A DNA stretch of 20,398 bases from the IMG/VR virus record IMGVR_UViG_3300030328_000593, positions 1-20,398 of that record; one strand, 5' to 3'. The number at the start of each line of letters is the position of its first letter. Position 1 is the first letter of the stretch. This stretch comes from a virus. Below, one piece after another: positions 718 through 20,255 of the stretch. The translations under genes and the position numbers were made by a program. A model generated the notes under the pieces. It was not told the DNA's origin, ran no database searches, and saw nothing but the letters and a program-made list of their open reading frames with translations.

Positions 718-730
718 CAACGCACAAATA
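718..730 (-). promoter_or_regulatory. Late promoter-like motif, copy D (tail fibre)
   Basis: Read on the minus strand this is TATTTGTGCGTTG, matching three other copies at 12 of 13 or more positions. It sits in the 69-base gap between the gp16-type gene and the tail fibre, 44 bases before the fibre start codon. An AT-rich run with TATAAT follows. The spacing from the motif to that TATAAT is too short for a standard sigma70 -35/-10 pair, so a phage RNA polymerase promoter is the better guess. Confidence 0.6.
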
Positions 731-742
731 AACTAGTACAAA

Positions 743-3700
743 TTACTGCGCCCACATTCTTGTAATTGCATTCATGTCGTCTTTCCAAAACCACATTCGA
801 GCAAACGGTAAGTTCCGAGCAAACTTCTTTGCACCCTCTCCATATTCACCAGCTAAGAATTGAACAGCACCATCAGAAAGATCTAATGTAATAGAAGCAC
901 CAGCCCCAGCTATATTAGCTGCTGCATCTAACCCAACTATACCTGTGCTTTCTCTTAACTTCTGAGCTAAAAAACTAGGCTTATGCGGAAACTTAGGTGC
1001 AATAATACCATTTGTAATATTTGGACCGCCAAGCGCAAGCGATGTGTGCAACGTCTGATAAAACAAATCACTATACAAAGCGGTAATACCACTAGCATCA
1101 AATGCTCGAGCAAACCTATCTTGTGCTGACATTTCATCCCAAGCAAATTCTGCACCAGATATTGAATATCTCATTTGCGTTGATAAATAGCCAAGGCCAA
1201 GCATTGTTGTCATGCCTATTGCTCTATTTTTTAATTGACCATGAGCCGCTGCACCAACCATTTTATTTACATTAGCTAATGTGTAACTATAAAATTGAAA
1301 TGGCAAAGCTAAGAAACCATTTTCTATTCTTGAGTACCCTTTAAAGGTTTTATCTTCTGAGTAACCAAAACGTTTTGCAATGTGGTGCGGAACAAAAACA
1401 ACACCATCATTTATTATTGGTCTATCTGCTGGCGTTGCAGCAAGAATAGTATTTAATACGCCTGAGTTTAATGCAGATCTAAATGTATGAACAATCTCTT
1501 CTGCACCTGTTTCTGAATCTCTCATTCTTTTTTCAACAGCAAGATCAATACCAGCTTTACGCTCGTTCTTCATGTAAGCAATTGCTAGATCATCAATCCT
1601 TTTTTCATAATTAGGATGTCTTTCTCCTTCAGCAATCTGCTGTCTAAATTTACTGTGTTGAAGTTCATGCAAAGTAACAAAACGAAAGTAATCATCAAAC
1701 TCTTTAAACATAGTAGCGTTTTCTATATTTGTTAAAGAATGATAATATCCTGTTTCTGATATTCTTCCTTCAGCTAATGCTTGAACAAGAGCTTCTTTTC
1801 TTTCTTTTTTAGCTACTGATTTTCTTTTTTTAAGATCTTCAAAATATGCTTTCATATTTTTTTTATTTAAATAAATAATATTACCAGTAGGATCATACAT
1901 AATACTACCCATAATAGTAGTAGTGCCTTCTTTACCTCTCCACTTATTAAAAGCATTAATTTCTTTTTGATTGGTAACAATTTTTTTAATATCAAACTCA
2001 TCTTTAAAACGATTAAAGATTTCTCTTTCACTCATTTCAGATAATTTTTTTTCAGGAAGCTTAAAAGTTTTTCTTACATCAGCCCTTACCTCTTTAATAT
2101 CAAGCTTACCCCATTGCTCTGTATTAGCTAAATACAAACCATTGTTTGTTCTTTCCCAATTAGATTTTGCAATTTGTTTTGCTTTCTTTTCATCAATGCC
2201 ATATCGAGCAAGCCATTGTTTTTCAAAAGCACTAACTGATTTTGGATTATTGGTAAGCCTTACTGACCTGTCTATGATTGTGTGCGCTCGAGCAATGCCA
2301 TCAAGAGTTTTACTTAACTGAGTTAATGGGCCAAGACCATTCAATGTATAAAAAGCATTTCGTGCTTTATTCCAAAACTCATTGGCATCAACATTATTAG
2401 CCATATCATCAACTAATCGAGCAAACGCACTACCTTTTAAAATATCAATAGCCTCACCAGATAGCCTAACTTCTTTAGAACTCATCTTTAATGTTTCTTT
2501 ATCAAGCAAAGCAGAAACAACTTTAATCATTGTTTGACCATCGTGTTCCATTATAACACGACCAAACTCAGGAACAGCAGCAATCCAGCCAGATCCCATA
2601 TAGTTAGTAGCAGCCGCTTCCTTCATAATGTAAGCAGCCGTTTGATTCCATGATGAAGGGTCTCTAAGAACAGCGCCAGCAATACGATCATACATAAGGT
2701 TTATATCCCTCATGTGTTTGTTTATTTCTTTTTCAGATAGCCCTCTTTTTATTGCATCTCTTCTGAGATGAAAGTTTAGATCCTCTAACTCCTGACCATT
2801 AAAAGCTTTTTTAAATTCTATTCTTGGAGCAACTCTAGCTGTGTAAGTTTTCATTATAGCAATAGGATCTTGCATAATAAAATCATAAACTAGTTCATTT
2901 GGAATATCTAACTTACGATGTCTAAAATGTTTAGATCTACCATAACCGTAGGCAATACTTGACTCGCCAGTTATATCTGGGTCGTTAAGAATATTATCAA
3001 CAGTTCGCTTCGCTCTTTGCCTAATATCATCTGCATCTTCGCCAAAGTATTTTTTTACCCACTTGCCTTTTTCAAAACGCCACACAGTAGGATTATTTGT
3101 GTACCATTTTGCAAGAATACTTTCTAACTCATTACGCCTAGCCTTAACTACAGAAACGTCCCAGAATCTAGGAAGGAAAGCATCAGTAAAAGTCTGTTCA
3201 GTATCATTAAAATTTTTTAACTCTTGTTCTGCTATCTCTCTTCTATTTTTTAAACGCTCGATATACGTTATTAACTCTTGTCTTAATTTAGGATTGTTTG
3301 CGGTAAGAGTTATTTCATCTTCAAGCTTGGGAATGGTTCTATTAAAATAGTTTATCGAATCTTGAATTGATTTCTTAGTGCCTATTAAACCAACACTTTT
3401 TAATTCCCCTTCTGCTTTTTTAAAAAAGTTTTCAATAACACCAATAGCCTGTTTTTCAATATCAGTTAGATCTTCATCTTTAAAAGTTCTCTTTCTATTA
3501 ATATCTCTAAGCCAAGAACCATAACTGTCATCTCTTCGAGCAACGGATCTGTAAGCTGTAACAACATCAATATCTAAGAATGAAGTGTCCATTAACTTCA
3601 TATCTTCTCTAAATAATTTTATTAAATCATCATGCGCTTTTACCCATAAACCATTTCTAGCGGCAGCCCTTTGATGAACAGATAACGGACTAGCAATGCC

Positions 3701-4762
3701 AAGAGTTGTTGCAATATAATTAAGGCCAGAATCACCGCCTATTTTAACCATTGCTTCTTTCATAAAACCTGTTGCGGTGTCTGATTGAATAACTCTTTTA
3801 AATGGAGTGCTTACAAACTTATAAAAAATACTGTCAGTAAATCTGTTCTTAGCAATAGACCATACTTTTTCTGGCTTATAACCATCGCTTATTAATTCTC
3901 TAATAGCAGCTTCTCTTCTATGTGCTGATAATAAATTCTCCACTTCTCTAAAATCAGATTCTTTAGCTGTAGTTTTTTTACCAGCATCCATTTCTAATTC
4001 TAGCTTATTCTTTCTTTCAGTCAGAGTTTCTATTCTTGACTTTAATACTTCTACTTTAAGATCCTCATGTGGTCTTATAGCATTAGAAAGATCCGACAAA
4101 TCATCAGCACTTACTTCGGAAGCGTGTTCAATCATTCGAACTGATCTAGCAAAATCTGTTAGATCTTCTTGTGCTTTTCTTAATGCTTTAGCTCTAGCAG
4201 TAAGAGGAATAGATATTGCCCCACCAAACGCAGCACCAAATAAAGTAGCCCCCACAATGTTGTAGATACTATCTGCTGCTGTCTGAACAGGATCATTGGG
4301 CTGTATAAGCACAGCTTCTACGCCAGCTTGCAGCATACCAACGCCAGCACCAACCCTTAATGCACTTCTGCCAATACCAATACTAGGGCCACCCAAAGGC
4401 AACGCTACTAAATTAAGAGGGTCAAATAAACCAGCGCCAAGCAAAGCAGTGAAGGATGAGTCAGCTAGTATCTGCCTTCTTTCTATCGACTCATCAATTC
4501 CTCTTTTAAGAAAAGCCATATGTTGAGGGTTTGTTGCATGACGTAAATGCATTGCATAAAGACCATGATCACCCATATCCTCAAAAGGATTATAACCTTC
4601 TTGCCTTTCATTACCAAATTGATTGTGCGCTCTAATTGATTCAATAATAGGATCATAGCTATAACCTAATGAAGCACTTAATGTTTGCCCAAATGTAGGC
4701 TTAACAAACTCTCTTCTTGGTGAGAACCCACTAAAGTCAACTGTAAGAGGATTAGTTACCAT
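743..4762 (-). CDS. Internal virion protein, T7 gp16-like, with HELQH motif
   Basis: This 1339-residue protein is close in length to T7 gp16 (1318) and lies between the gp15-type gene and the tail fibre, as in T7. It is expected to be stored in the capsid and ejected to help form the trans-envelope DNA channel. Residues about 104-190 are rich in Gly, Ala and hydrophobic residues (GLFDPLNLVALPLGG then further stretches) and could contact membrane. The middle is long, charged and helical. Residues 1032-1036 read HELQH within TLHELQHSKFR, the HExxH form of zinc peptidases. The C-terminal part has PFQFYSYTLANVNK, similar to segments in other podovirus ejection proteins. I see no lytic transglycosylase domain of the kind at the N-terminus of T7 gp16. 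The start overlaps the previous gene by 11 bases, suggesting coupled translation. The role by position is fairly sure; the peptidase activity is inference. Confidence 0.75.
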   Translation of the reverse strand: MVTNPLTVDFSGFSPRREFVKPTFGQTLSASLGYSYDPIIESIRAHNQFGNERQEGYNPFEDMGDHGLYAMHLRHATNPQHMAFLKRGIDESIERRQILADSSFTALLGAGLFDPLNLVALPLGGPSIGIGRSALRVGAGVGMLQAGVEAVLIQPNDPVQTAADSIYNIVGATLFGAAFGGAISIPLTARAKALRKAQEDLTDFARSVRMIEHASEVSADDLSDLSNAIRPHEDLKVEVLKSRIETLTERKNKLELEMDAGKKTTAKESDFREVENLLSAHRREAAIRELISDGYKPEKVWSIAKNRFTDSIFYKFVSTPFKRVIQSDTATGFMKEAMVKIGGDSGLNYIATTLGIASPLSVHQRAAARNGLWVKAHDDLIKLFREDMKLMDTSFLDIDVVTAYRSVARRDDSYGSWLRDINRKRTFKDEDLTDIEKQAIGVIENFFKKAEGELKSVGLIGTKKSIQDSINYFNRTIPKLEDEITLTANNPKLRQELITYIERLKNRREIAEQELKNFNDTEQTFTDAFLPRFWDVSVVKARRNELESILAKWYTNNPTVWRFEKGKWVKKYFGEDADDIRQRAKRTVDNILNDPDITGESSIAYGYGRSKHFRHRKLDIPNELVYDFIMQDPIAIMKTYTARVAPRIEFKKAFNGQELEDLNFHLRRDAIKRGLSEKEINKHMRDINLMYDRIAGAVLRDPSSWNQTAAYIMKEAAATNYMGSGWIAAVPEFGRVIMEHDGQTMIKVVSALLDKETLKMSSKEVRLSGEAIDILKGSAFARLVDDMANNVDANEFWNKARNAFYTLNGLGPLTQLSKTLDGIARAHTIIDRSVRLTNNPKSVSAFEKQWLARYGIDEKKAKQIAKSNWERTNNGLYLANTEQWGKLDIKEVRADVRKTFKLPEKKLSEMSEREIFNRFKDEFDIKKIVTNQKEINAFNKWRGKEGTTTIMGSIMYDPTGNIIYLNKKNMKAYFEDLKKRKSVAKKERKEALVQALAEGRISETGYYHSLTNIENATMFKEFDDYFRFVTLHELQHSKFRQQIAEGERHPNYEKRIDDLAIAYMKNERKAGIDLAVEKRMRDSETGAEEIVHTFRSALNSGVLNTILAATPADRPIINDGVVFVPHHIAKRFGYSEDKTFKGYSRIENGFLALPFQFYSYTLANVNKMVGAAAHGQLKNRAIGMTTMLGLGYLSTQMRYSISGAEFAWDEMSAQDRFARAFDASGITALYSDLFYQTLHTSLALGGPNITNGIIAPKFPHKPSFLAQKLRESTGIVGLDAAANIAGAGASITLDLSDGAVQFLAGEYGEGAKKFARNLPFARMWFWKDDMNAITRMWAQ

Positions 4763-7700
4763 CTTCTGGAACTTTCAAGTAATTAATAAATGCTAGTGCA
4801 TCAGATGCTGCTTTACCTAATTCTTCGATTTCAACAGTTAAAGCGGTAGGATCTTCATCTGTTATATCTTTTATCATTTCTGATATTGCAAACAATCTAT
4901 CAGCCATTAATGATTCACTGCTAAAGTCTCCGTTAGTAAAATAAATTCTATCATCTGGATTAAAGTTTTGAACTAAATCAGCATTGCTTGTTTCAAGTTT
5001 ATTAAATGCTTCAACAATATTTTTACCAAGAGTATTAAATACTTCTTTTCTTCGAACAGATCCAGCAGGGTATTGATCTGATATAAATTTAATAGTTTCG
5101 GCTGTTTGAGCTTCTGTCATAGATTCATCAATTACAGATGCTTTTTGCTTAGCTACTAAATCTAAAAATTTTTGCTCTCTTGTCCCAATAGAAATACCAG
5201 TTAAAACTTTATTGCCCTCTCCATCATCAACAAGCATTTGATAAGCAAGGCCATCTTTATTAACAACGCCATAAACCTGACCTTTAGTTTGTGTATCTTC
5301 CCCATAAGGCACTAAATAAAACTCTTCAGTTTCCCAGTTAATTTTATTTGCTACCTTTGATAAACCACCGAACATATCATATTTTGTTTCTTCAGATATA
5401 CGTTCTCCAAACTTATTATACTCAACAACATTTTTCATAAGTTCGTTTTTAATATAAGTCTTAAATAATTTTTCATTCCCTCCAGTTGTAAGATTAAGGG
5501 AATGTAAAGTCTTTTCACTTAATGGTTCTTTAACCATAGAATCTTGTTTTAATCTTGTATCTAAAAAGTTTCGAACAGCAGTATGAGGGTCAAAAGAAAT
5601 ATTAGCTGGATCAGATTTGCTTTCAGCATAATGAACACTAATAACTTCAGATGCTCTTAAAAGAAGATCTTGGTTTATACCGATTTCTTTTCCAAAATTA
5701 TCTAATACATATTGATTTGGCGTTACTTCTCCCAAACCTTTTTCCAATTGATTTTGAAATTCTGGAACATTTTTAATTGTTCTTATTTGTTTTAAACGCT
5801 CTACAAGAGCAGCATCTGTTGCCTTAACACTCATTTGTCCTGATGGCATATTTTTATATGAAGCTAAAAGTTTATCTAAGGTCGCTGCTAATGCAGGATC
5901 TAATAGCTTACTTGTGCCAGCATTATCATAAACTTGGTTTTGTGTTAGGTTTATTTTATTATTTACTGAATCATATATATTTAAAACTCTACTCATACTA
6001 AAGTTAGGAGTTACAAAACCACCTTCATTAACTAAATTTTCAAAAACAGAAACAAGACCTGTCGGGGCAATACTAGCTTGCCTTAACATAATTAATAATT
6101 TTTGCTCTTCTTCACCGCCCAAATCAAAATTAGTATTTACTATAAAATCTATTAAATTATCAGCACCCATTTTTTGAGCAATGTCATCAAACTGACTGCT
6201 TAATAAGTCACGATTGTCTTTTGTGTTAGGTACTGTTTGACTTAACGCTTGAGCAAAAAACTTTCTATTTGCTATTTGGGTTTCTTCATATTCTAAAGCA
6301 TCTGATCTTCTTCCAGAAAGAGACTGGCCCTGCACTCTAGTAGCGTTATCACCAAGAAGCGTTCTAGCTTCTTCAATCTTTTTTATTTCATCTTCAGTTA
6401 ATTCATAAGCCTCTTTATATTCTTCACTTTGCGCTCCATTCATTACATAATGATCGATTGAAGCTAACTGCTGACGACTTCTTATATTATTAAAAATATC
6501 GGAAAGCTTGTGTGTTCCATTTCTAAACTCAAAACTTTCTTGAAGCGATGCTTTTTGCTCATCACCTAATTTAGTATTTTCAATTTTATTTTCAAAATCA
6601 GAAACCTGATCAGCATTTGCAAAATTTAATTTCTTAAGATCCTGACTTAGTTGAATTGTATTTTGTAATTGTTCTTTTTTCTCAAAGAAATTTGTATCAT
6701 CTTTAATAGCGTTAATATCAGCATTAAGAGTATCTAAAAAATTAAACTTAGGGAAATTTTCATTAAGTTCTAAAAAGTTTCTTACTGATTTTGCTAAAGC
6801 TGGATTCTTATCATACAATACTTCATATGGTGTAGGATCACCTGTTGCGCTATCTAGTCTTTGATCTTTTAAAACCATTGCTACTAATGAAAGATCTTCA
6901 CGACTATCTGCGTCTCTTGAGACTATAATACCACTTAATGCCTGACCAAAAGCATTTACTTCATTAGTTACCGCAGTCATTTCTGCTTTATACAATTCAG
7001 TATCTAATGTACGATCAAGCTTATTATCAGATTGTTTTCTTTGATCATAAAAGTTTTCTACAAGTTGATCTATCATAGTGGACTGATCTAAATCATCACC
7101 TTGAGCAGCATCTTGTGCTGCATTAGTTAAATCTCTTAAATCTTGATTTTGTTTTTGTTTTTTTAATAAAGAAAGTTGAAGCTCAAATTCTTCTTCTGTT
7201 TCTGATGCTTTTAATAATGGCAATGCAAATTCTTTTATTGAATCAAATAAATCAGAATCTTTATAAGCTTCTTCAAGCATTGGCCTTATACTATCAAATG
7301 TACTTTGAGTTAAATGTTGAGGGTTTTCAGTTGCTATTGCTAATGATAACCTTTTTATACCAAACATTGTTAAATTCTTATTTCTAAGAAATGCAGTTAT
7401 TTCTCCTCTTGCTTTAGCTTTAAGTATATTCCTATCTGTATCTGCAACCTCACCACTTAATATATACCCAGCTTCTAAATCATTTTTATTTGTTTCTTTA
7501 ATTGCTTTTATAGTTGCTTCAGCATTTTTAATATCTCCAATAGAATAATAACTTTCTATGGCATCTACAGCTTCTATATTTTGCCTAGCATTATGAAGTC
7601 GCATATCCTGATCGTGTCTAGCATTAGCTTGCTTAACTAATGAGTCATAAACATTAGATGTAAGTTCTTCTCCACGTTGACGAATAAACCTTTTAAAAAC

Positions 7701-8135
7701 CGAGCTTCCCTCAACATCTATCATTGCTTTAGTATGATTAGTTAAAGCTTCTTTAAATCCTTCTGGATTTTTCCTAAATGTATTTGAAAACTCTTTAGCT
7801 TTATCAGAAAGTTCTAACTCTATTTCAGTTTGAAATCTATTTAATAAAGCTTTTTCTCTAGCCTGTCTTGCAATTCTTCCCATGAATCTAGGAGGCTCAT
7901 AAACTTCAGGCCGACCATCTGCACCAAGAGTTGTTATTTGTTCTGGTGAATATTGCTCAACAGATTCAATGCCTCTCTTTTCTGCATTTTCAACAGCACG
8001 TTCAAAAAACTTTGCAGATAAAGCATTAGCCCCTTTTGCAATAGATTCATTTGTTATAGCTCCAGCCCTTGATGATCGAGCAACACCAACAGGGCCAACT
8101 TTAAATTGTCTTGCTTCTCTAATAACTTTAACCAT
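4752..8135 (-). CDS. Internal virion protein, T7 gp15-like
   Basis: This 1127-residue protein is soluble-looking, highly charged and largely helical, without membrane segments. It is longer than T7 gp15 (747) but sits in the same place, between the gp14- and gp16-type genes. The N-terminus (RQFKVGPVGVARSSRAG) is basic. Residues about 80-130 are rich in Arg and Lys helices, and long Asn/Gln/Lys/Glu helical stretches fill the rest. In T7 the equivalent protein forms part of the internal core and then of the periplasmic tube. The ATG follows a GTAGGTAAG ribosome site that overlaps the stop of the gp14-type gene. The call rests on gene order, size and composition rather than on a diagnostic motif. 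Confidence 0.65.
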   Translation of the reverse strand: MVKVIREARQFKVGPVGVARSSRAGAITNESIAKGANALSAKFFERAVENAEKRGIESVEQYSPEQITTLGADGRPEVYEPPRFMGRIARQAREKALLNRFQTEIELELSDKAKEFSNTFRKNPEGFKEALTNHTKAMIDVEGSSVFKRFIRQRGEELTSNVYDSLVKQANARHDQDMRLHNARQNIEAVDAIESYYSIGDIKNAEATIKAIKETNKNDLEAGYILSGEVADTDRNILKAKARGEITAFLRNKNLTMFGIKRLSLAIATENPQHLTQSTFDSIRPMLEEAYKDSDLFDSIKEFALPLLKASETEEEFELQLSLLKKQKQNQDLRDLTNAAQDAAQGDDLDQSTMIDQLVENFYDQRKQSDNKLDRTLDTELYKAEMTAVTNEVNAFGQALSGIIVSRDADSREDLSLVAMVLKDQRLDSATGDPTPYEVLYDKNPALAKSVRNFLELNENFPKFNFLDTLNADINAIKDDTNFFEKKEQLQNTIQLSQDLKKLNFANADQVSDFENKIENTKLGDEQKASLQESFEFRNGTHKLSDIFNNIRSRQQLASIDHYVMNGAQSEEYKEAYELTEDEIKKIEEARTLLGDNATRVQGQSLSGRRSDALEYEETQIANRKFFAQALSQTVPNTKDNRDLLSSQFDDIAQKMGADNLIDFIVNTNFDLGGEEEQKLLIMLRQASIAPTGLVSVFENLVNEGGFVTPNFSMSRVLNIYDSVNNKINLTQNQVYDNAGTSKLLDPALAATLDKLLASYKNMPSGQMSVKATDAALVERLKQIRTIKNVPEFQNQLEKGLGEVTPNQYVLDNFGKEIGINQDLLLRASEVISVHYAESKSDPANISFDPHTAVRNFLDTRLKQDSMVKEPLSEKTLHSLNLTTGGNEKLFKTYIKNELMKNVVEYNKFGERISEETKYDMFGGLSKVANKINWETEEFYLVPYGEDTQTKGQVYGVVNKDGLAYQMLVDDGEGNKVLTGISIGTREQKFLDLVAKQKASVIDESMTEAQTAETIKFISDQYPAGSVRRKEVFNTLGKNIVEAFNKLETSNADLVQNFNPDDRIYFTNGDFSSESLMADRLFAISEMIKDITDEDPTALTVEIEELGKAASDALAFINYLKVPEDGN

Positions 8136-8580: not shown

Positions 8581-10823
8581 TAAATAATTACCTCCGTAAT
8601 AAATCCATTAACTTGCATAGATAGTGGATTGTCTTGTTCTATTGTTACTTTAGGATCTCTATCGTACCCAATCAATCTAACTTCTTTCTTACCAGTAAAT
8701 GATGTTTCAATATTTATAGGCTTAGTATTTACCTTTATAGATCTAGTATCCTTCATATCTACAACAACATTTGTAATTCCTCGAAGAGATCCTGTTAGTG
8801 GGCCAGCAGCCCCAGATGCATCTATAGGATTTGATATAATCTTTGAAGTAAATTTCTTGCCAACATATGCGTGTGTATATCCAGCAGTAGAAAAAGCTGC
8901 TAAACTAACAGCACCAGCAGCTACAGTAAATTCACCAAGGTAATCGTTTTGACTTCCGCTTGTTGCGACAACATCAACAGTTGTGCCATTTGCGTATGCA
9001 GAACTAACGGTAACAGAATTAGTAGATATTGCTCCATAAACATAAGAGTCTAAACCAATATCAGTTTTAAACTCACACAGTCTTAATTTATTATTCGCAT
9101 CATAGATGTTTACAAACAATCTATCATCTATAGAGACCACAGAATCAAAACGCCCATTAGTTGTGAACTCAGTCCAAGACGCTCTTTTCTCTGCTCGATT
9201 AGAAGTAAACACTGCCGCATCCCCATCTGTCATAGACATAAGTGCATAAGAATCTGGCTGCCCAAAACCACTATGAACAACAGCTATATACTTGGGGGTG
9301 TTAATTAAATGGGAAGCAATAGTTGATATTGCTGTAGAAGCATAGGCATCTTCAGCATCTGTAAATAAATATTCCCTTATTATTCTACCACTAGCTTGTG
9401 AAAAAACAGTTGCTCCATCTATTAATTGAGGAGTTGCAAATGCACATCCATATGGTGTTTGTTCACGAATTTGAGCATTAGTTGGAGTAATGCCCTGATT
9501 AAGAAAAGTTGGAACATAAAGCTCACCAGTACCAGCAAACACCTGAAGATCTCTACTAGATACTAAGTGACGTATCTCATGCACATCACCTGTTGCTGCT
9601 GTTAATTGAATAGCCTCATTATCTAAAGCCTCACCAGCATCAAAATTAAAATACTCACCTATCTGACTCATATAAATAGAATCTGGTTCTGCAATAGTTC
9701 CAGCAAATACTAATCTGTTTTCATGAAAAGCTACAGCGGCAGGGTATCCACGTTTTGCTGACCAAGATTGCTCATCCCAATCTCTATTTAAAACAGCACC
9801 TGTTAATGTAGGAAACCCTCCACCATCTTCTGAAGAAGTAGCAGCAGCACTAGCATTAAAAGTAAAAGTATTCTCATCAATAATACTAGTTATAGTTGTT
9901 GTAATATTTAAATTTGATGCTGCAATGCCGCCAACATCATCACAATCAGATAAAGTTATAGTCCCACCGCCAACATATAGGCCGTGATTAATCATAGTTA
10001 CTTCAACTTTTTGGCTTCCATCGTGCGCTCTAAGTGGATTATTTACAGTTAATCTTCTTGAAAAAGTGTCACTAATATTAACTTTAGCTTGAGTCGTAGA
10101 CTGGACACTTACTATTTGCGCTTCATTCCCACTATATCTTAGCTTAACTCCAACGTGCAAAGAGTCTGGATAATTACCTCCGCTTTGACTACCTGTTGTA
10201 TCAAAATAAGCAGAGCTTGTTGTAACAATTACATTAGTTCCAGTAGTCGCTGCTGGTGTTAGCGTAACCCCAGCACCTTGAAACCTAGAGTATGGTTGAT
10301 AAGTTTTCTTAAAATCAGATCTATTATCAAATGTAAAAGTGCTAATATTAAATGCAGTAAGACTTGTTCTTGTTAATACTCTAGGCGCAAATAAGGGATG
10401 GCAGATAAACATTACATCACCCATTTGTGCAGTAGTATATTGATGCAAGTAATCTTTATCAAATGGTAAAGCTGCGCTACTAGCATCAGCAGTTATTGTA
10501 GCAACTAAACTTACAGTATCAGCATCTACAACCCTAAAACATCTTACTTTAGCGTGTTCAATGGAAATAATATATTGTTCATTATTATCAAAAATAAAAG
10601 GAAATAGATGAGATTGATCTGGGTTACTAGCATCATAGGTTATTGAATAATCGTATATATGCTTTAAACCCTGACGTTTTCTTGCGCTTCCTTCAGCACT
10701 TACAATCATGTTTTCAATTTTTTGTGCTGAGCTTGTATAGACACTAGTATCTGTTCTCATTACTAATGAGTCGCTTACTTCACCAAACTGAAAGCTGTTT
10801 TGCGGAACGCGAATCTTTTGCAC
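8580..10823 (-). CDS. Tail tubular protein B (nozzle), T7 gp12-like
   Basis: This 747-residue protein is close in size to T7 gp12 (794), which forms the hexameric tail nozzle. The N-terminus has the family pattern: NSFQFGEVSDSLVMRTD, then Y..SAQKIENMIVSAEG and ARKRQGLKH. Many beta-rich, Ser/Thr-rich stretches follow, with segments such as AVAFHENRLVFAGT and LQVFAGTGELYV that recur in this family and suggest a beta-propeller. The start is GTG: the gp11-type stop TAG shares its G with this start (TAGTG), so translation is probably coupled. It would join the gp11-type gatekeeper above it and the fibre at the side. Confidence 0.85.
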   Translation of the reverse strand: MQKIRVPQNSFQFGEVSDSLVMRTDTSVYTSSAQKIENMIVSAEGSARKRQGLKHIYDYSITYDASNPDQSHLFPFIFDNNEQYIISIEHAKVRCFRVVDADTVSLVATITADASSAALPFDKDYLHQYTTAQMGDVMFICHPLFAPRVLTRTSLTAFNISTFTFDNRSDFKKTYQPYSRFQGAGVTLTPAATTGTNVIVTTSSAYFDTTGSQSGGNYPDSLHVGVKLRYSGNEAQIVSVQSTTQAKVNISDTFSRRLTVNNPLRAHDGSQKVEVTMINHGLYVGGGTITLSDCDDVGGIAASNLNITTTITSIIDENTFTFNASAAATSSEDGGGFPTLTGAVLNRDWDEQSWSAKRGYPAAVAFHENRLVFAGTIAEPDSIYMSQIGEYFNFDAGEALDNEAIQLTAATGDVHEIRHLVSSRDLQVFAGTGELYVPTFLNQGITPTNAQIREQTPYGCAFATPQLIDGATVFSQASGRIIREYLFTDAEDAYASTAISTIASHLINTPKYIAVVHSGFGQPDSYALMSMTDGDAAVFTSNRAEKRASWTEFTTNGRFDSVVSIDDRLFVNIYDANNKLRLCEFKTDIGLDSYVYGAISTNSVTVSSAYANGTTVDVVATSGSQNDYLGEFTVAAGAVSLAAFSTAGYTHAYVGKKFTSKIISNPIDASGAAGPLTGSLRGITNVVVDMKDTRSIKVNTKPINIETSFTGKKEVRLIGYDRDPKVTIEQDNPLSMQVNGFITEVII

Positions 10824-11719: not shown

Positions 11720-12529
11720 CTAGTTATTATCTAATAGTTCATAGATACCATTGTCATCAATAACAACAGCACCCATAGACATCATAGATGTTGCAAGGTG
11801 AGATACTTTCTCAGCAACGTAGTTGACTTCAGTTTGAACATCAGAGTTGATACCCAAGCCAACGGCAGTTGTGTGATAGCACATACTCTTACCAGCAGCG
11901 ACAGCAGACGTTGAAAAGATCTTAAAGCCTAAGAACTCTTTCATTGTCATACCACCAGCAAAAGGTAAGTTTTGATCACCAACAAAGTCAGATGATGCAA
12001 ACTCTGTAATCAAGAACAAGTCAGCAAAACCTTTTGGATGCATAGCGATATAACGCTGTCCATCTTCAGGAAGATTAGCTGTTCCAAATGTTTCAAATAC
12101 AGATAGTAGATCTGCTTTTTCAACAGCAGAACTTGTATCATGGATTTGAGTTGAGTTAGCACCAGCATCCATAGCTGTAATTAGTAAGCTATCAGTCTTA
12201 CGACCTAGAGCAGCAGCAGCAGATTGTGCTACAGCTTGACGCTCGTTGATGTTGATTTTGAGTTCATCTAACTTGTCGATGTACTCAGCAGCGTAGAAGT
12301 CAGCCATAGTTGCTTCTACATTGGTATGTGCAAGTTCCATAGGAGTTACATTACCATTACGAGATTTAGTAGTTGCTTCCGCAGTACCAATCTTTTGAAA
12401 TCTAACAGTTGATCCAGTTACATTAGCAGTCCGCACTGTGTTCCGTAGCTTAGAACCCATACGCTGATATGCCATGTGAACTTCTGTTTCGAACTGTTTG
12501 ATAAAGGCTGTGTCTATTGTATTAGCCAT
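11720..12529 (-). CDS. Major capsid protein
   Basis: This 269-residue protein follows the scaffold region and precedes the probable decoration gene. It has the look of a HK97-fold phage capsid protein: a helical N-arm (IDTAFIKQFETEVHMAYQRMGSKLRNTVR), an E-loop-like region (TVRFQKIGTAEATTKSRNG), a spine helix (DELKININERQAVAQSAAAALGRKTD), the P-domain segment EDGQRYIAMHPKGFADL, and a C-terminal beta segment. It is shorter than T7 gp10A (345) but within the range of this family. I see no frameshift extension like gp10B. The ATG has AAGGAA about 8 bases upstream. A promoter-like motif lies 134 bases upstream inside the previous gene, and a strong hairpin follows the next gene, so the pair can form a separately transcribed, highly expressed unit. 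Confidence 0.85.
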   Translation of the reverse strand: MANTIDTAFIKQFETEVHMAYQRMGSKLRNTVRTANVTGSTVRFQKIGTAEATTKSRNGNVTPMELAHTNVEATMADFYAAEYIDKLDELKININERQAVAQSAAAALGRKTDSLLITAMDAGANSTQIHDTSSAVEKADLLSVFETFGTANLPEDGQRYIAMHPKGFADLFLITEFASSDFVGDQNLPFAGGMTMKEFLGFKIFSTSAVAAGKSMCYHTTAVGLGINSDVQTEVNYVAEKVSHLATSMMSMGAVVIDDNGIYELLDNN

Positions 12530-12608: not shown

Positions 12609-13115
12609 TTAGTGTATTACGGGCTGCAATGTGCCATCATAAACATCTTTTTCATTTGGATTGCAACGCACAAATTCAACATATTCGATTTCATTGTTAG
12701 ATGTTATACCAACAGCTTCGAAGCCTAACCATGATGCCCAATCCAAAATAAACTCATATTCTTTAAGTATTGTCATAGATAAACCACTATGAAACTGATC
12801 AAAGTAATTAACAAACATTACAGATCCCCTAGCCATAGCAGTAAAGTTTTCTTTAATTTTATCAGAAAACATTGCAAACATCTGAGGGCATTCTTGATCT
12901 TCAGCAAACCAAAGACCCCCAATCATTATAAAACTATCATTATTTTTTCTGCACAAATAACACTCAGAGCTTTTATGCATATCAATAAGAGCTTTTCGAA
13001 TATCGGTATAACCTAATAAAACAAGCTCTTTAACATTCTCTTTAGTAAGATTTAGTATAACTTCATCAATATGATCTAAAGTAAAAGGGGTAAGATAATA
13101 CTCACCCCTCTGCAA
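12609..13115 (-). CDS. T7 gp13-like protein, GNAT-like fold (probable)
   Basis: A protein of about 168 residues lying between scaffold and capsid. Features include FTLDHIDEVILNLTKENVKEL, then LLGYTDIRKAL, a Cys pair (ECYLC), a MIGGLWF strand, FAMFSDKIKENFTAMARG and a late ASWLGFEAVG segment. This arrangement, ending in a W-x-x-x-LGF helix-strand, resembles T7 gp13 and related proteins with an acetyltransferase-like (GNAT) fold, thought to act in virion maturation. An ATG at 13202 is also in frame, but it lies 83 bases inside the scaffold gene and its extra residues look like a shadow frame. I prefer TTG at 13115 (or ATT at 13118), just after the scaffold stop, with AGAAG upstream. In T7, gp13 follows gp12; here it precedes the capsid gene. 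The catalytic status is unknown and the fold assignment is moderately sure. Confidence 0.55.
   Translation of the reverse strand: MQRGEYYLTPFTLDHIDEVILNLTKENVKELVLLGYTDIRKALIDMHKSSECYLCRKNNDSFIMIGGLWFAEDQECPQMFAMFSDKIKENFTAMARGSVMFVNYFDQFHSGLSMTILKEYEFILDWASWLGFEAVGITSNNEIEYVEFVRCNPNEKDVYDGTLQPVIH
12664..12676 (-). promoter_or_regulatory. Late promoter-like motif, copy C (capsid)
   Basis: Minus-strand AATTTGTGCGTTG, identical over 13 bases to copies A and B. It lies within the end of the gp13-like gene, where it encodes EFVRC, and is 134 bases before the capsid start. The capsid gene would be its first complete gene. The position parallels phi10, the strong capsid promoter of T7. Confidence 0.6.
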
Positions 13116-13119
13116 AATC

Positions 13120-13857
13120 TTAGCTTCTGTAGATTCTCTTGAATCCTTCAGCAACTTGCTTGTGTATGTTTGGGTCACGATCTTTCCAATACTTTGGATC
13201 ATCCATCATCTTTCGAAGATCAGCTTCATTAAGTTCAGATGCTGACGCTGTATCACCAGCGAATGATCCATCCTTCATACTTGCCATCATAGTCTCAAGA
13301 ACAATAATACCCTCATGACTTTCACACATTTTTTCTATAGCTGGCATTGCTGATTCAGGAAAAAACTTATTAGCCCATAATGATGCTGCATCTATTCGAG
13401 CGTCAGCATTATCGCCAAGCTTTGCGACTTCATCCTCATAGCTGGGCTGAGAACCAAGAACAGACTCAGAGTATATCTTAATACCTTCTTCGAACTCTTC
13501 TTGAGAAAATCCATTGTTAAAAGAATGCTCTGACCACCACCTAAGTAAATCATTATCAACAGCCTCTTCTTGATTAATAATGTCTGGAAGCTGATAATCA
13601 CCAGCAGTCTCTGGTCTATTAGCAAAAGCTTCTGCTTGTATTTCTTCTATAAGTTGATTTTTAAGATCTTCATCTTTAGCTCCTAGCTTAGACTCTAGCT
13701 CTTTATAAGCTTTAGCTAAATCCTCACCAGTTTTATATTTCTCTGGCAACCATTCAGGTTTTTCAGATGTTTGTTCTACTTTCTCAACATCTTCTTGGGT
13801 TACAAAGTCACGACCATCTTCGGCTGCTACTTCTACTGCTGCATCTTCTTCACTCAT
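13120..13857 (-). CDS. Capsid assembly scaffolding protein, T7 gp9-like
   Basis: This 245-residue, strongly acidic, mostly helical protein lies between portal and capsid, as scaffolds do. The N-terminal 30 residues are rich in Glu, Asp and Ala. Residues 34-55 (PEWLPEKYKTGEDLAKAYKELE) are the recognisable element of this scaffold family, and a helical region follows. The C-terminus is basic (HKQVAEGFKRIYRS), fitting a helix-turn-helix that binds the capsid protein. T7 gp9 has 307 residues. The start ATG overlaps the upstream stop in ATGA. The scaffold guides capsid assembly and leaves before or during DNA packaging. Confidence 0.82.
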   Translation of the reverse strand: MSEEDAAVEVAAEDGRDFVTQEDVEKVEQTSEKPEWLPEKYKTGEDLAKAYKELESKLGAKDEDLKNQLIEEIQAEAFANRPETAGDYQLPDIINQEEAVDNDLLRWWSEHSFNNGFSQEEFEEGIKIYSESVLGSQPSYEDEVAKLGDNADARIDAASLWANKFFPESAMPAIEKMCESHEGIIVLETMMASMKDGSFAGDTASASELNEADLRKMMDDPKYWKDRDPNIHKQVAEGFKRIYRS

Positions 13858-14111
13858 TGTTTACTCCTATTTGCATGGGCAATGCGGTGTTCAATCAAAC
13901 CTACTAGGTATCTTTGCCCTTCGATGTGTCGAAGTTCTTCTGTAGAAACATTAGGCCCATTAACCATTTCAATAGTAATAGATCTAAAATACTTTAGAAC
14001 TTCCTGACCTGTTGGGCTGGAAAATACTTGTGCAACATTCTTACTAATCTCAACATCACGCTCAGATTTACGCTGAATGCCATCTATCCCAATATTAACC
14101 TTGTTGTTCAA
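13854..14111 (-). CDS. Small Bbp19-like structural protein
   Basis: This 85-residue protein begins 17 bases inside the portal gene and ends in the ATGA overlap with scaffold. Residues about 30-43 (FSSPTGQEVLKYF) and 62-76 (HIEGQRYLVGLIEHR) match the two-block pattern that I associate with Bbp19-like proteins, first named in Bordetella phage BPP-1 and common next to portal genes in podoviruses. The first block is a short helix after a Ser/Pro-Gly turn; the second is a GQR motif leading into a helix. The precise role is not known to me. The location suggests a head or portal accessory protein. Confidence 0.58.
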   Translation of the reverse strand: MNNKVNIGIDGIQRKSERDVEISKNVAQVFSSPTGQEVLKYFRSITIEMVNGPNVSTEELRHIEGQRYLVGLIEHRIAHANRSKQ

Positions 14112-15636
14112 CTGGCATCATTCCCTGCTGCATTGCCTGTTGTTGCGCTAATTGCTGCGCGGCTTCCGCAATCTGTTTACGCTGTTCTTCATCTCGAATC
14201 AAGCTTTCTGGAACACCAAACTTCTTAGCTAGGTAAATAGCGGTCTGCTCTCCATCAATTAAAAGCTGTAACATTTCTGGACCAAAACCGTTACCAATCA
14301 TTTCGAGAAAGCGTGATACTACAGAAATATCCTGATTAGATTGTGCTTGAGCAAGTGGAGAGACAGACCTAACTTTTATTTCTCTGCCATTAACTGTTGG
14401 TATTTCAATGCGGCCTTGTTTCTTTAGGATATAAACCACACGCTGAAGAAGTGGTTGAACAAGCTCAGCTTGTAATCTACCAAAAGATGCGCCCATTCTT
14501 CTTGATAAATCAGCCATACGCTCAGCTATTTCTGTAGCTGTAGCTGGTGTTTTATCAGGATTACCAAGCATATCATTATACAAAGCACGTTTAATATTTA
14601 ATCTAAGATCACCCAAAACAAGTTGAGCAACATCGAAACGACCAGCAGCTTGTATAGGTTGTAGTCCAGCAGATCCCATAGCTTTAGGAATTATAGTTCC
14701 TGGAACGAGATTAATTGTATCAGGGTTTATTACCCCATCATCTTCCATTTGATAAATACCAGAGATCGACATCTGTGCGTTTTCAAGTATCAACTGAATA
14801 GTAAGGTTAGTTGTTTTAATAGAACTTAACGCATTAATTAGTGGCCCTCGACCATAAACCTCACCAGCGCACTTAGACCAACGAAAGCAAATGAATGGAT
14901 TAGACCCAACACCACTCATTTCTTTAGAGTGTAATATTGTTTCAGTAGTAAGGCATATTGCGTAATGATAGTACGCCTCGACATTTGGTTGGGTATAATT
15001 TCTGCATACAAGCTCAAGAACTGTAGTTTCTCTATTCGAACCCATTTGTGAAGTAACTTTGGAATCAAATGTAGAATTAGGAAACATTAAAGGTAAATGA
15101 TCAAACTTAACCTTCTTTCTTTCTCGAAAGACATGGTCAATCCTATCATCAGGGCCAGTGTCTAATACAACATGAGGAAGTGGTATTGCAGAAAAGTTAA
15201 TTGGATTTAAGGCATCACCTTCCTCAACGCATAAAATGCCAGTACCAACAGCCAAGTCCATAAAGGATTCATGAACTTCTTGGCTAAAATTAGAGTTCTG
15301 CAAAACTTCGAACACATAGTTCGTTACTTCATCTAATTGATTATCAACCTGTTCTCGCTCTTGTGGGTCTACTTCACTGCCAGAAACAAAATCTGCCCAT
15401 CGAGCAAAGTTAGGAACAATACCTGACTGCAATCTACTTGCAAACTCTTGAGTACCTACTACAGCAGTCTCGTCAAATATCTTTTCATCTCTACGTTGGC
15501 CGTGTTCTTCATAGTAAAAAGATTCTCTTTGAGGCAAAGCATACTCATAGCATTCCTCAAAAAGCGAAACCCATTGTTCACGAAAACCTTTCGCTTTTCG
15601 ATACTTCTCTATAAAATGCTTTGCTATATTATCCAT
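14095..15636 (-). CDS. Portal (head-tail connector) protein, T7 gp8-like
   Basis: This 513-residue protein is close in size to T7 gp8 (536), the dodecameric ring through which DNA enters and leaves the head. The N-terminus shows the family pattern: KYRKAKGFREQWVSLFEECYEYALPQR, then KIFDETAVVGTQEFASRLQSGI and FARWADF. A central stretch with CFRWSKCAGEVYGRGPL and a later helix (NDMLGNPDKTPATATEIAERMADL) are also typical of this family. The C-terminal 30 residues are rich in Gln and Ala (AAQQLAQQQAMQQGMMP). It starts on the last base of the Gly-rich gene's stop (TAATG) and overlaps the Bbp19-like gene. Confidence 0.9.
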   Translation of the reverse strand: MDNIAKHFIEKYRKAKGFREQWVSLFEECYEYALPQRESFYYEEHGQRRDEKIFDETAVVGTQEFASRLQSGIVPNFARWADFVSGSEVDPQEREQVDNQLDEVTNYVFEVLQNSNFSQEVHESFMDLAVGTGILCVEEGDALNPINFSAIPLPHVVLDTGPDDRIDHVFRERKKVKFDHLPLMFPNSTFDSKVTSQMGSNRETTVLELVCRNYTQPNVEAYYHYAICLTTETILHSKEMSGVGSNPFICFRWSKCAGEVYGRGPLINALSSIKTTNLTIQLILENAQMSISGIYQMEDDGVINPDTINLVPGTIIPKAMGSAGLQPIQAAGRFDVAQLVLGDLRLNIKRALYNDMLGNPDKTPATATEIAERMADLSRRMGASFGRLQAELVQPLLQRVVYILKKQGRIEIPTVNGREIKVRSVSPLAQAQSNQDISVVSRFLEMIGNGFGPEMLQLLIDGEQTAIYLAKKFGVPESLIRDEEQRKQIAEAAQQLAQQQAMQQGMMPVEQQG

Positions 15637-15945: not shown

Positions 15946-17460
15946 TCAACGCACAAATTGAAAAGCACTCTTTTTCTTAGGTCTGGAAAACAGGTCGAAA
16001 CTTCTTTTAGCAACGACAGGACGCATAGGTTTTTGGTTATTCATCAAGGCTCTACCCTCTCCAGCACCTAAGAAAAGATACTGAGCAGCATCGTGAACGT
16101 GAGAAAACATATTTTTATCTGGTTTATCAGCATATCTTTCACCAGATACTTCCATTCTTTTATAAGCGTAGCCACCTTCAAAGCCTTTAATAAGTTGAGG
16201 GCAACGCCTGTCTATAAGTAGTGCTGGCTTACCTTCAACCATTTTAGTCAATTGGGAGGAGACTGACTCTAGTCTTAGGTCAACAGAGTTGGAGGGTGCA
16301 GGGTATGCCCTCAAGCCAGCACCGCGCAGAATGTGAAAGGGAGTTGATTCATCGGTCTGCGCTCTAAAGTCTCCAGCAGGGTCTCCGTAAATAATAACTT
16401 CGGAAGCTGCGGAGAATCTTGTTGCGAGTTCTTGCCTTAATACTTCTGCAAAACGGACAATCCCCATATCTATCGCAACAATTTCTGACTGAACAAACCA
16501 ACGTCCTCTTACTTTCTGAGCAAGAACTGCGGCTGGTGTTAGCCCAAAGTCTATACCAACATACACAGGTGTATTAGCGGCAACAGGTATTTCTTCTTTT
16601 GCTATGTGTACTTCACCAGCAAACATTGGATAAACAGGTTTCCCATCTTGGATATGACCCAAGCGGTTCATAACATAGACATCAATCCAGCTTTTAGTCT
16701 TACCGCGAATGAGGTTTGAATAATAATTGCCTAAGATGTTTTTTTGGTTTTCCGCTTTGGGGTTTTCTTTGTAGTCTTGGATTTCGCCTTCTTCGTCTTT
16801 GGCTTCGAGCATCCCACAAGGCTGGGTAAAGAAACTCCAATTGTCTGGTTTGACCAGCATCTTAGCTTGCTCACGAGGAATATGATCTGGGACTGGAACT
16901 TCACCAGCCATAATGGGCCACCAATGATCTTCTTCAGGCGCGTTGGTATCGGCAATAACCCCAGACCAACTAGGACCACCATCACGCATAGAAGGAAAAC
17001 GGCCAACACGCATCGTACAGGCATCAATAATAGACTTAGGAATCTCTCTCGCTTCGTTGATCCAGATACCTGTAAGTTCGAGCGAAAGAAGTTTTTTAAC
17101 ATCTTCAGGGCGGTCAAGAGCCAAGAATATAACTTCAAGATCTATCTCTCCTTTTTTAATGTGATGTGTATATGGAACAGACCAATGAAATCTACCCCAA
17201 TCAGATTCGGGAAACCAATCAAGCCAAGTCTTAATAGTTGTAGTTCTTAGCTGTGGGTTAGTGTTTCGAATGATTGCCCATCTACTTTTACGCAGTCCGT
17301 CTGCACCTTTCTTCTGTTCGAGGGCGCGTCTGAATACTTCAACGCAACAACCAACAGACTTGCCAGATCCAACAGGGCCACGAATACCACGAAAAAAAGT
17401 GCTGTCCTTCATAAAAGATTTCAGCACTTCTCCATCGGGTTTATATTTAAAGTTAATCAT
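15946..17460 (-). CDS. terL: Terminase large subunit
   Basis: This 504-residue DNA-packaging motor combines an ATPase and a nuclease. The Walker A motif is GPVGSGKS at residues 28-35. The Walker B region is GIWINEARE (131-139), with Glu136 as the likely catalytic residue; Asn stands where many families have Asp. The RNase H-like nuclease residues are visible: Asp304 in VGIDFGLTPA, Asp360 in IIYGDPAG and Asp457 in HVHDAAQ. The C-terminus is basic (RPKKKSAFQFVR), as expected for portal contact. It starts on the last base of the upstream stop (TAATG). The last codons and stop overlap the promoter-like motif that precedes the head genes. It precedes portal directly, unlike T7, where terminase follows the tail fibre. 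Confidence 0.92.
   Translation of the reverse strand: MINFKYKPDGEVLKSFMKDSTFFRGIRGPVGSGKSVGCCVEVFRRALEQKKGADGLRKSRWAIIRNTNPQLRTTTIKTWLDWFPESDWGRFHWSVPYTHHIKKGEIDLEVIFLALDRPEDVKKLLSLELTGIWINEAREIPKSIIDACTMRVGRFPSMRDGGPSWSGVIADTNAPEEDHWWPIMAGEVPVPDHIPREQAKMLVKPDNWSFFTQPCGMLEAKDEEGEIQDYKENPKAENQKNILGNYYSNLIRGKTKSWIDVYVMNRLGHIQDGKPVYPMFAGEVHIAKEEIPVAANTPVYVGIDFGLTPAAVLAQKVRGRWFVQSEIVAIDMGIVRFAEVLRQELATRFSAASEVIIYGDPAGDFRAQTDESTPFHILRGAGLRAYPAPSNSVDLRLESVSSQLTKMVEGKPALLIDRRCPQLIKGFEGGYAYKRMEVSGERYADKPDKNMFSHVHDAAQYLFLGAGEGRALMNNQKPMRPVVAKRSFDLFSRPKKKSAFQFVR
15947..15959 (-). promoter_or_regulatory. Late promoter-like motif, copy B (head module)
   Basis: Minus-strand AATTTGTGCGTTG, overlapping the final FVR codons and the stop of terminase. 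The first gene downstream is the MCFGGG protein, starting 47 bases after the motif, followed by portal. An AT-rich stretch (ATTTTATTTTAA) follows it directly. The motif is identical to copies A and C. Confidence 0.6.
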
Positions 17461-17849
17461 TAGCTTTTTCTAAAAAGAGTTTTCTTTGCATATTCTTGCG
17501 GCATTTTTAAACCACCACCCCCACCGCCTCTTCCAGATATATTTTTAAATTTTATTCTGCTTGTTTTCTTTTTAAAGTCAGATTCTGCTTTTTTAAATGC
17601 ATCAGTCTTAACAATATTATTTAATGCTTTTAAATTTTTTTGATTATCAGAAAAGTTTTGTCTAGTTAATTTTGTCATCTCAGAAACAGAAATGCTTTTA
17701 CTTTTTGCATAATCACCCATTTTCTGTACAGAATTCAATCTTTCTTGCCTTAATGCTTGTTCTTTTTCTATTTGAGCTATTTGAATTCTTATTTGTCTAG
17801 CATCAAAAGATTCAGAAGAGTTAACATATTTTACATTAAATTTAGTCAT
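17460..17849 (-). CDS. Small basic protein, GGGG-KMPQEY C-terminus (copy 2)
   Basis: This 129-residue protein is immediately upstream of terminase (TAATG overlap). It is helical and rich in Lys, Gln, Ser and Asn over residues 15-100, then has a Gly run (GRGGGGGG), LKMPQEYAKKTLF and RKS. The C-terminal 25 residues match those of the 141-residue protein at 18779-19204, so the two are probably paralogues or share a mobile tail. The position just before the large terminase subunit makes it a candidate small terminase subunit, but I see no DNA-binding motif that proves it. Function unassigned. Confidence 0.68.
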   Translation of the reverse strand: MTKFNVKYVNSSESFDARQIRIQIAQIEKEQALRQERLNSVQKMGDYAKSKSISVSEMTKLTRQNFSDNQKNLKALNNIVKTDAFKKAESDFKKKTSRIKFKNISGRGGGGGGLKMPQEYAKKTLFRKS

Positions 17850-18209: not shown

Positions 18210-18409
18210 TATCTTAATCCTTTATCAACTCCAAACTTTATCATGGTCTCTGCAACATCAGGGCCAATGTTATCTATAACATTATCAATCATTTTATTAG
18301 TAACGAAAGACTTCCCATGCTTTTCATCGAAGTGTTGGAAGTGTACCTTCTTAACTATTCTTCGAAGCATAGTAAGCTCTTCAGGTTTGAGCATATCTAC
18401 AAAGCTCAC
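18209..18409 (-). CDS. Small conserved-looking phage protein (66 aa)
   Basis: The sequence begins MSFVDMLKPEEL, then TMLRRIVKKVHFQHF and ends in NVIDNIGPDVAETMIKFG. It looks like a compact helical domain with mixed charge and no low-complexity tail, unlike its neighbours. The start is GTG, overlapping the upstream stop in GTGA; an ATG five codons later is an alternative. I do not recognise a characterised family. Proteins starting with this kind of VDMLKPEE sequence seem familiar from marine podoviruses, but I cannot confirm this here. A helical domain of this size upstream of terminase could also be a small terminase subunit. Confidence 0.62.
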   Translation of the reverse strand: MSFVDMLKPEELTMLRRIVKKVHFQHFDEKHGKSFVTNKMIDNVIDNIGPDVAETMIKFGVDKGLR

Positions 18410-18633
18410 TGTTCGTAAGCCTCATTAACGTCAGGCGTAGAAGGGTCATCAGCTTTTAATCTGCCTTTGTCATCCCTAGCGCGTTTCTTTTTAGCTGGTT
18501 TCTTAGGTACTTCGTTAGTCCACTCTAATCTTTTAGACTCAGAAGTTCTTGTTTCTCCTGACCATGTCTCACCGCCAAGTTGATGAGTTCCCTTATCCCA
18601 TAACTCGCCAGTGCTAGAAATTTTCCATCCCAT
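18406..18633 (-). CDS. Small hydrophilic protein with DDPSTPDVNEAY tail (75 aa)
   Basis: Two halves are visible: a Trp/Gly/Thr-rich N-terminus (MGWKISSTGELWDKG, then GGETWSGETR) and a charged C-terminus (KKPAKKKRARDDKGRLKADD then PSTPDVNEAYEQ). It looks largely unstructured. It has a strong AGGAG ribosome site overlapping the end of the preceding open frame, and ends in a 4-base overlap with the next gene, both signs of a real gene. Function unknown. The defined C-terminal block suggests a short peptide that binds a partner. Confidence 0.62.
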   Translation of the reverse strand: MGWKISSTGELWDKGTHQLGGETWSGETRTSESKRLEWTNEVPKKPAKKKRARDDKGRLKADDPSTPDVNEAYEQ

Positions 18634-18778: not shown

Positions 18779-19204
18779 CTATGACATAGGTTTCTTTAAT
18801 AGTGATCTTTTGCTATACTCTTGTGGCATCTTCATACTTCCACCACCACCACGACCTACCATCTTTCTGGTAAAAATTCTTTTGCGTTTAGCTTCACCAG
18901 TAACTTTATCCCTAGTCATTTTCTTAGGATCTTCCCTACCTTCTTGCTTTTGAATCTGATTTAAGTCTTTTAAAGCTGATTTCTTTACCTCTTTATGCTC
19001 ATTAGCTAACTCTCTGTTAGTGCTTCTTTGAGGTCCGTCCTCACTATTAAAAGTAACAATCTCTTTATTTGGATTTTTTAAAAGAGTTTTTATTTTCTTT
19101 TGACTATCAGATATAGTCCTTCTTAAATATTTCTTAAGATCGTTCCTATCTTCGGCTTGTTGATAGCCTAAACCATATCTTTCACTTATTGATAACTGAT
19201 CCAT
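18779..19204 (-). CDS. Small basic protein, GGGG-KMPQEY C-terminus (copy 1)
   Basis: This 141-residue protein starts on the last base of the upstream stop (TAATG). Residues about 20-110 are helical, charged and rich in Lys, Gln and Glu. The C-terminal 27 residues are GRGGGGS then MKMPQEYSKRSLLKKPMS, closely matching the tail of the 129-residue protein next to terminase. The bodies of the two proteins show little similarity, so the tail may be the functional unit. Function unknown; the likely context is packaging or head assembly. Confidence 0.66.
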   Translation of the reverse strand: MDQLSISERYGLGYQQAEDRNDLKKYLRRTISDSQKKIKTLLKNPNKEIVTFNSEDGPQRSTNRELANEHKEVKKSALKDLNQIQKQEGREDPKKMTRDKVTGEAKRKRIFTRKMVGRGGGGSMKMPQEYSKRSLLKKPMS

Positions 19205-19494: not shown

Positions 19495-19565
19495 TACTTT
19501 TTACCACCCTTTTTCTTTGGTGGCCTACCCTTCTTAGTTCCATAAGTCCCTTTTCCTTGAGGCAT
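19494..19565 (-). CDS. 23-residue AT-hook-like microprotein
   Basis: A complete small gene encoding MPQGKGTYGTKKGRPP followed by KKKGGKK. It has a strong ribosome site (AGGAG, 7 bases before the ATG), lies just after the 108-residue gene, and its stop shares a base with the next start (TAATG), so the layout supports translation. KKGRPPKKK resembles an AT-hook (a GRP core flanked by basic residues), which binds the minor groove of AT-rich DNA, fitting an AT-rich genome. I recall similar short MPQGKGTYG peptides from other marine phages but cannot check this. DNA binding is inference. Confidence 0.65.
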   Translation of the reverse strand: MPQGKGTYGTKKGRPPKKKGGKK

Positions 19566-19574
19566 AATAATCTC

Positions 19575-19901: not shown

Positions 19902-19902
19902 T

Positions 19903-20094: not shown

Positions 20095-20095
20095 A

Positions 20096-20209
20096 TCAAT
20101 CTTCCCCATCTTCCTCAGTGGCGTAACCACTGCTTTTCAATGCAGCCTTCACCAAAGACATATCATCCTTCGGTGGGTACTTCTCTGGTCTCTTTTTAAA
20201 ACGTGCCAT
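20096..20209 (-). CDS. 37-residue small charged protein
   Basis: A short open frame beginning MARFKKRPEKYPPKDD and ending GYATEEDGED, with a basic start and an acidic end. It has an AGGG ribosome site about 9 bases before the ATG, is the first gene after promoter-like motif A, and is followed with one base between by the MCFGGG gene, whose ribosome site lies within its last codons. The tight packing supports it as a real gene. No function can be assigned. Confidence 0.55.
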   Translation of the reverse strand: MARFKKRPEKYPPKDDMSLVKAALKSSGYATEEDGED

Positions 20210-20242
20210 GACCAAACCCTATAACAATAAAAATATTTATGA

Positions 20243-20255
20243 CAACGCACAAATT
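20243..20255 (-). promoter_or_regulatory. Late promoter-like motif, copy A (start of late region)
   Basis: Minus-strand AATTTGTGCGTTG, 33 bases before the first small gene and after the end of the upstream gene. AT-rich sequence (CATAAATATTTTTATTG) follows. It is identical over 13 bases to copies B and C and would drive the whole small-gene and terminase region. Confidence 0.6.

Follow-up and report, generated by a model that had tools for sequence, protein, structure and literature searches.

A conserved box in front of the late gene modules of T7-like marine phages accompanies a small helix-turn-helix protein and is probably read by host RNA polymerase

Results

A T7-like late region with four copies of one box

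The window, by which we mean the whole 20,398-nucleotide stretch of DNA analyzed here, makes up nearly all of a 21.2-kb IMG/VR virus record and presents a T7-like gene order of terminase, portal, capsid assembly, capsid, tail tube A and B, internal virion proteins and tail fibre (Table 1). Its nearest isolates are Pelagibacter phage EXVC031P Hodr (portal 61%, terminase large subunit (TerL) 66%), whose record (OQ414635.1) carries locus tags named after another phage, EXVC032P Baldr, and Methylophilales phage MEP301. A protein of 1127 residues encoded at 4752-8135, at the position of the T7 internal virion protein, is very variable among relatives and has no significant Pfam or PHROG match. ORF 12609-13202 shares 83 nt with the end of the capsid-assembly gene and is similar to PHROG 308 (internal virion protein). 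Small late proteins (17460-17849 and 18779-19204 in the window; 9130-9600 and 9612-10043 in the relative L089) share a C-terminal tail like GRGGGGSMKMPQEYxKxSLxKK, as if they were processed or recognized by one partner.

Table 1. Coordinates of box copies, predicted promoter cores and anchoring genes in the window
Feature	Position	Strand	Description
Box copy AATTTGTGCGTTG	20243..20255	-	Exact; between the small-terminase gene and the small-gene block
Box copy	15947..15959	-	Exact; spans the TerL stop codon, before ORF 15899-15636 and the portal gene
Box copy	12664..12676	-	Exact; within ORF 12609-13202 (codons Phe-Val-Arg-Cys)
Box copy TATTTGTGCGTTG	718..730	-	Exact; between the internal virion protein gene and the tail fibre gene
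Predicted promoter core	20218..20245	-	TTGTCA (20245-20240), N16 spacer ending TGT, TATAGG (20223-20218)
Predicted promoter core, capsid copy	12636..12666	-	TTGCAA, N19 spacer, TATGAT
Tail fibre gene	2..673	-	ORF, runs off the window, 3' of the box at 718; N-terminal part found in relatives
Major capsid gene	11720..12529	-	PHROG 3437, 2e-57
Portal (head-tail adaptor) gene	14095..15636	-	PHROG 332, 3e-93
TerL gene	15946..17460	-	PHROG 2, 5e-20; stop codon within box

A preliminary description of this DNA had reported four copies of (A/T)ATTTGTGCGTTG in one orientation, and this observation holds. The sequence WATTTGTGCGTTG is found exactly at the four positions listed in Table 1, always on the minus strand, which is the gene strand, where none is expected from 100 dinucleotide shuffles. 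The remainder of the 21.2-kb record has no further copy, and a scan of up to three mismatches yielded nothing above chance (11 found versus 8.3 expected). The copies lie 33 nt 5' of a small ORF (20209-20097) in the block that separates the small terminase gene from the large one, 47 nt 5' of the gene that follows TerL, 134 nt 5' of the major capsid gene and 44 nt 5' of the tail fibre gene. All four positions are as the preliminary description gave them, each at the front of a module. The first late promoter is, however, not the 20243 copy but one that precedes the small terminase gene and falls beyond the window, as seen in the close relative L118. The 20243 copy is found at the same place in L012, L071 and L118, and with changes in L016 and L067. 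In relatives, a G-rich purine tract (GGGGGGAGAGAGGGAGAGGGGGG; L087:4190-4220 and L238) comes directly after the first late promoter, and a shorter tract of this type follows the small terminase gene in the window (20309-20328, minus strand).

The box is conserved as DNA at the module borders of relatives

Relatives were fetched with capsid, terminase, helix-turn-helix (HTH) and RusA-like queries. Counts of raw repeated 10-12-mers per genome proved too noisy, and we therefore used a comparison anchored on the modules. About 35 relatives also have the core TTGTGCGTTG at these module borders, among them relatives with unrelated flanking sequences. Exact cores number 106 on the late strand versus 1 on the early strand, where 0.86 are expected per strand, and none is present in 351 kb of box-less relatives. 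When a relaxed box is allowed (C or A at core position 6, G or A at position 7), the 35 box-carrying records contain 126 late-strand and 3 early-strand copies. The relaxed box precedes the capsid gene in 34/34 of the box-carrying relatives, with its core 142-154 nt before the capsid start, and is present at the end of TerL in 33/33 and before the fibre in 27 of 28 (core 42-59 nt before the fibre start); 23 further relaxed boxes lie upstream of TerL. Because these 35 records were partly chosen for having the box, such fractions describe its position and not its frequency. Neither the box-less phages nor Hodr have an equivalent box at the same anchors.

In most phages the capsid copy is coding (Phe-Val-Arg-Cys), which raised the possibility of a mere coding constraint. 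This explanation was rejected, since in the G003 group, where ORF 12609-13202 is missing, the capsid box is kept between genes at an unchanged distance. Likewise, the box at the end of TerL lies either across the stop codon or after it. Retention in coding and non-coding sites alike means that DNA, and not protein, is what is conserved. The scan of relatives proposed in the preliminary description thus bears out a box that is conserved at module borders and is almost exclusive to the late strand, and its view of the box as a phage-specific late promoter element is well supported by strand, module position, conservation and independence from coding context.

The box ends on a -35-like element and is followed by an extended -10 signal

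The preliminary description saw no -35/-10 spacing. We find such an arrangement at the 20243 and capsid copies, and a weak one at the other two, where the fibre copy has no good -10. The core at 20243, TTGTCA-N13-TGT-TATAGG, matches TGnTATAAT at 6/8 positions with a spacing of 16. More generally, the end of the box forms the TTG of a sigma70-like -35 element, and among 79 copies with diverged flanks a TG characteristic of an extended -10 follows the final TTG by 20-22 nt in 72%, compared to 24% for displaced positions, and is followed by T/A-rich letters. The overall score against TGnTATAAT is modest over background (z 3.1).

Copies at the early/late junction read TTTGTGCGTTGACA-N19-TA(T/A), that is, TTTGTGCG TTGACA-N19-TA(T/A), and therefore the last TTG of the box corresponds to the start of the -35 element. 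Spacing differs by class, with about 17 nt at TerL ends, 18-19 at the capsid and 19 at the junction. At its junction L118 carries a perfect TTGACA without the box, which would fit a division of labor in which TTG belongs to the -35 element and TTGTGCG is a separate activator half. An extended -10 located 16-19 nt from the -35 position is also the arrangement of activator-dependent sigma70 promoters of the CII/PRE kind. T7-type promoters have a consensus of about 20 nt around the start without -35/-10 elements, whereas here about 12 conserved bases are accompanied by a separate TG/-10 signal.

A small HTH gene accompanies the box wherever the early locus is in view

The early strand of the complete relative G006 encodes ERF, YqaJ, RusA-like and DUF932 proteins together with one HTH protein of 76 residues. 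The HTH gene is found in every box-carrying record whose early locus is in view, and all 29 HTH-bearing IMG/VR records have the box. Where the RusA-Zn108-c81 locus can be seen, 25 records with the HTH gene all carry the box and 9 without it all lack the box; G005 and G026 have both neighbours, Zn108 and c81, and cleanly lack the HTH gene between them. Of the families obtained by unbiased clustering of all ORFs, that of the HTH proteins alone occurred in every box-carrying near-complete genome (17/17) and in no box-less one (0/4). A small protein (18406-18633 in the window) loosely tracks the box (14/17), and was set aside as a partner because its gene is late.

A second sample, chosen by the RusA-like gene, gave 28 records with both HTH gene and box, 10 with neither, and no mismatch (38/38). 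This sample, with which five bacterial-bin contigs were scanned, overlaps the first in a few records (for example, L344 is G005 and L415 is G026). Trees indicate at least three independent changes of box and HTH gene, all concordant, although a tree-corrected sign test is not significant (p 0.25) because there are only three independent changes. Hodr is an exception, in that it has a distant HTH homologue (36%) and no box. The window's record ends before the HTH locus, and the link to the HTH gene comes from L118, the closest long relative (TerL 98% identical), which has the gene and three boxes.

HTH-bearing phage contigs L333, L334 and L335 were binned in Rhodobacterales genomes, which is a hint of Rhodobacterales as host. 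Two of the IMG/VR records, those behind L192 (43.9 kb) and L220 (44.8 kb), exceed the genome size of about 33 kb, and that of L192 carries the HTH gene twice, which suggests joined or chimeric assemblies.

The HTH protein itself, of about 80 residues, is XRE/CII-like. It matches PF01381 (HTH_3) above the cut-off, and a PHROG annotated as a CII-like regulator is among its top matches (4e-6); in the phage collection only distant matches were obtained, in Streptococcus phages and Hodr. An AlphaFold model is a compact bundle of four helices (core pLDDT about 90), consistent with the four-to-five-helix fold of the XRE/HTH_3 family, and its fold matches include HipB, C-proteins and P22 c2 (best E 2e-3, which identifies the fold class only). 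Among 20 diverse homologues the segment GCxxS(L/I)(I/V)HKWExxKR(I/V/L)PSGF is unchanged or nearly so, as expected if the DNA target is also unchanged. XRE proteins usually bind palindromes, and the box is not a palindrome, which counts against binding by a protein of this family.

Box-less relatives lack promoter-sized gaps

The distance from the TerL stop to the next gene has a median of 60 nt in genomes with the HTH gene versus 5.5 nt in genomes without it (p 8e-6), and the gap before the fibre has medians of 69 and 3 nt, respectively (p 6e-5). In box-less phages, whole segments the size of a promoter were either lost or never acquired. Clearly stronger promoters were not seen in these phages at the TerL end and fibre, which counts against activation by the HTH protein, and at the capsid their promoters were slightly stronger.

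No T7-type polymerase was detected

In a controlled search, 0/22 relatives have a PF00940 polymerase, whereas the T7 positive control scores 1e-110; two of the 22 (G006 and G043) have terminal repeats, and no scanned protein of the complete relative G006 resembles a T7-type RNA polymerase. No match to sigma70 region 4 was over the cut-off.

Discussion

We consider it probable that the box is the recognition element of late promoters read by host RNA polymerase with the help of the phage HTH protein, which is thus probably a switch that turns on the late genes. From the concordance of gene and box and the look of the promoters, we infer that the box is bound by this protein and that the effect is activation, not repression. 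Unaided host enzyme would first transcribe the early genes of the opposite strand, including the XRE/CII-like HTH gene. Its product would then bind TTGTGCG(TTG), immediately 5' of, and partly over, the poor -35 element that heads each late module, with TTTGTGCGTTG as the predicted binding target, and would recruit host sigma70 polymerase to a weak extended -10 (TGn + TAnnnn) located 16-19 nt downstream. As a result, the small-gene block, the portal and head genes, the capsid gene and the tail fibre gene would each be topped up by a promoter of their own.

It is rather unlikely, given the losses, that the box is instead an operator at which the HTH protein, as a Cro/C2-like repressor, sits on the -35 element and keeps the late promoters off early in infection. 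The XRE (Cro/C1) fold close to P22 c2 and HipB and the overlap of the box with the -35 element are what such a repressor would lead one to expect. Yet loss of a repressor would leave working promoters, and the lineages without the HTH gene are also without the box and, at the TerL end and fibre, without the gaps. Promoters are useless without their activator but not without their repressor, and this inference favors an activator, as do the long spacers and poor -35 and -10 elements that activator-dependent promoters usually show. Much less probable as a reader of the box is a host regulator or an alternative sigma factor of the host, with the HTH protein as a bystander of the same lineages: CtrA sites are known in other alphaproteobacterial phages (PMC9437464), and only three independent changes separate carriers from non-carriers, but the HTH family alone tracks the box perfectly, the second sample agrees, and the box is unlike the CtrA site TTAA-N7-TTAA.

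The preliminary description compared the box to T7-type promoters and proposed a phage RNA polymerase or a sigma/activator. The polymerase part of this proposal finds no support in the PF00940 search, and an activator fits best, given that the HTH protein tracks the box and that the latter overlaps the -35 element. A short and strict motif, a T7-like gene order and positions like those of the T7 capsid and fibre promoters do recall a single-subunit enzyme, and the 1127-residue protein without significant matches might be offered as a highly diverged polymerase. However, that protein occupies the place of the T7 internal virion protein, a -10-like TG signal lies downstream of the box, and a published study of related pelagiphages likewise finds no phage polymerase, with an HTVC010P-type phage (Ubiqueviridae) encoding regulators that are likely used to hijack host transcription (PMC10504331), so that we regard a phage polymerase as highly improbable. 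Hardest of all to credit is a role of the box in RNA (processing or antitermination) or as a recombination border between modules; this would account for its constant orientation at module borders, but not for the accompanying -10-like signal and promoter-sized gap, for the link to a protein with a DNA-binding fold, or for a capsid copy that lies within coding sequence at a nearly fixed distance from the capsid start.

Activation of host polymerase by the HTH protein would have several known counterparts. Lambda CII acts on lysogeny promoters and reads TTGC-N6-TTGC. Its target PRE, an extended -10 promoter, has poor -35 and -10 elements and needs CII (PMC2613000), and the system described here would resemble it in combining a small phage HTH protein, a poor -35, a non-consensus extended -10 and host sigma70 polymerase. 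In contrast to CII, four or more late structural modules are involved and the box is different, with no second TTGC at the distance of the lambda CII family repeats around -35 in the copies listed. The C proteins of restriction-modification systems (C.AhdI, C.Esp1396I and C.PvuII) are XRE proteins of about 80 residues with a close fold, and C.PvuII activates a promoter for host polymerase (PMC3695507); these proteins serve one operon through paired sites and autoregulation, whereas no such arrangement was seen here. The T7 class III promoters (phi10 and phi17) are similar in being a repeated strict motif just 5' of the capsid and tail fibre genes in a T7-like order, but differ in sequence, in their polymerase gene, of which these phages have none, and in the -10-like signal found here.

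Among phage late activators that act on host polymerase are Mu C, P2 Ogr, phi29 p4 and T4 MotA. Together with GafY, the activator of the Caulobacter gene transfer agent (GTA), whose site lies about 120 nt upstream and which works with IHF (PMC11150451), they share with the candidate activator the redirection of host sigma70 polymerase to late or structural genes by a phage or phage-derived protein, and are unrelated to the HTH protein or of unproven relation to it. No such box has been described in the HTVC010P-type pelagiphages, and among the matches listed in our literature search there was no description of the core TTGTGCGTTG as a phage element. A phage activator of host polymerase is thus of a known kind, while the box, the protein and the linkage across a whole regulon appear to be new.

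Somewhat more tentatively, we favor the view that the box and the XRE protein form a portable late-gene switch among T7-like phages without their own polymerase. Cassettes of box, -10 and a gap of about 60 nt would be gained or lost as a unit with the activator, such that the late genes would be transcribed from several activated promoters in some phages and as a single long operon in close relatives of these. For the timing of late genes in abundant marine phages that have no RNA polymerase of their own, these findings offer one concrete protein-box pair, and they yield a predicted promoter set at base resolution, for which lineages of natural loss can serve as controls. Late promoters come and go together with their candidate regulator, and a whole regulon would thereby switch design between close relatives.
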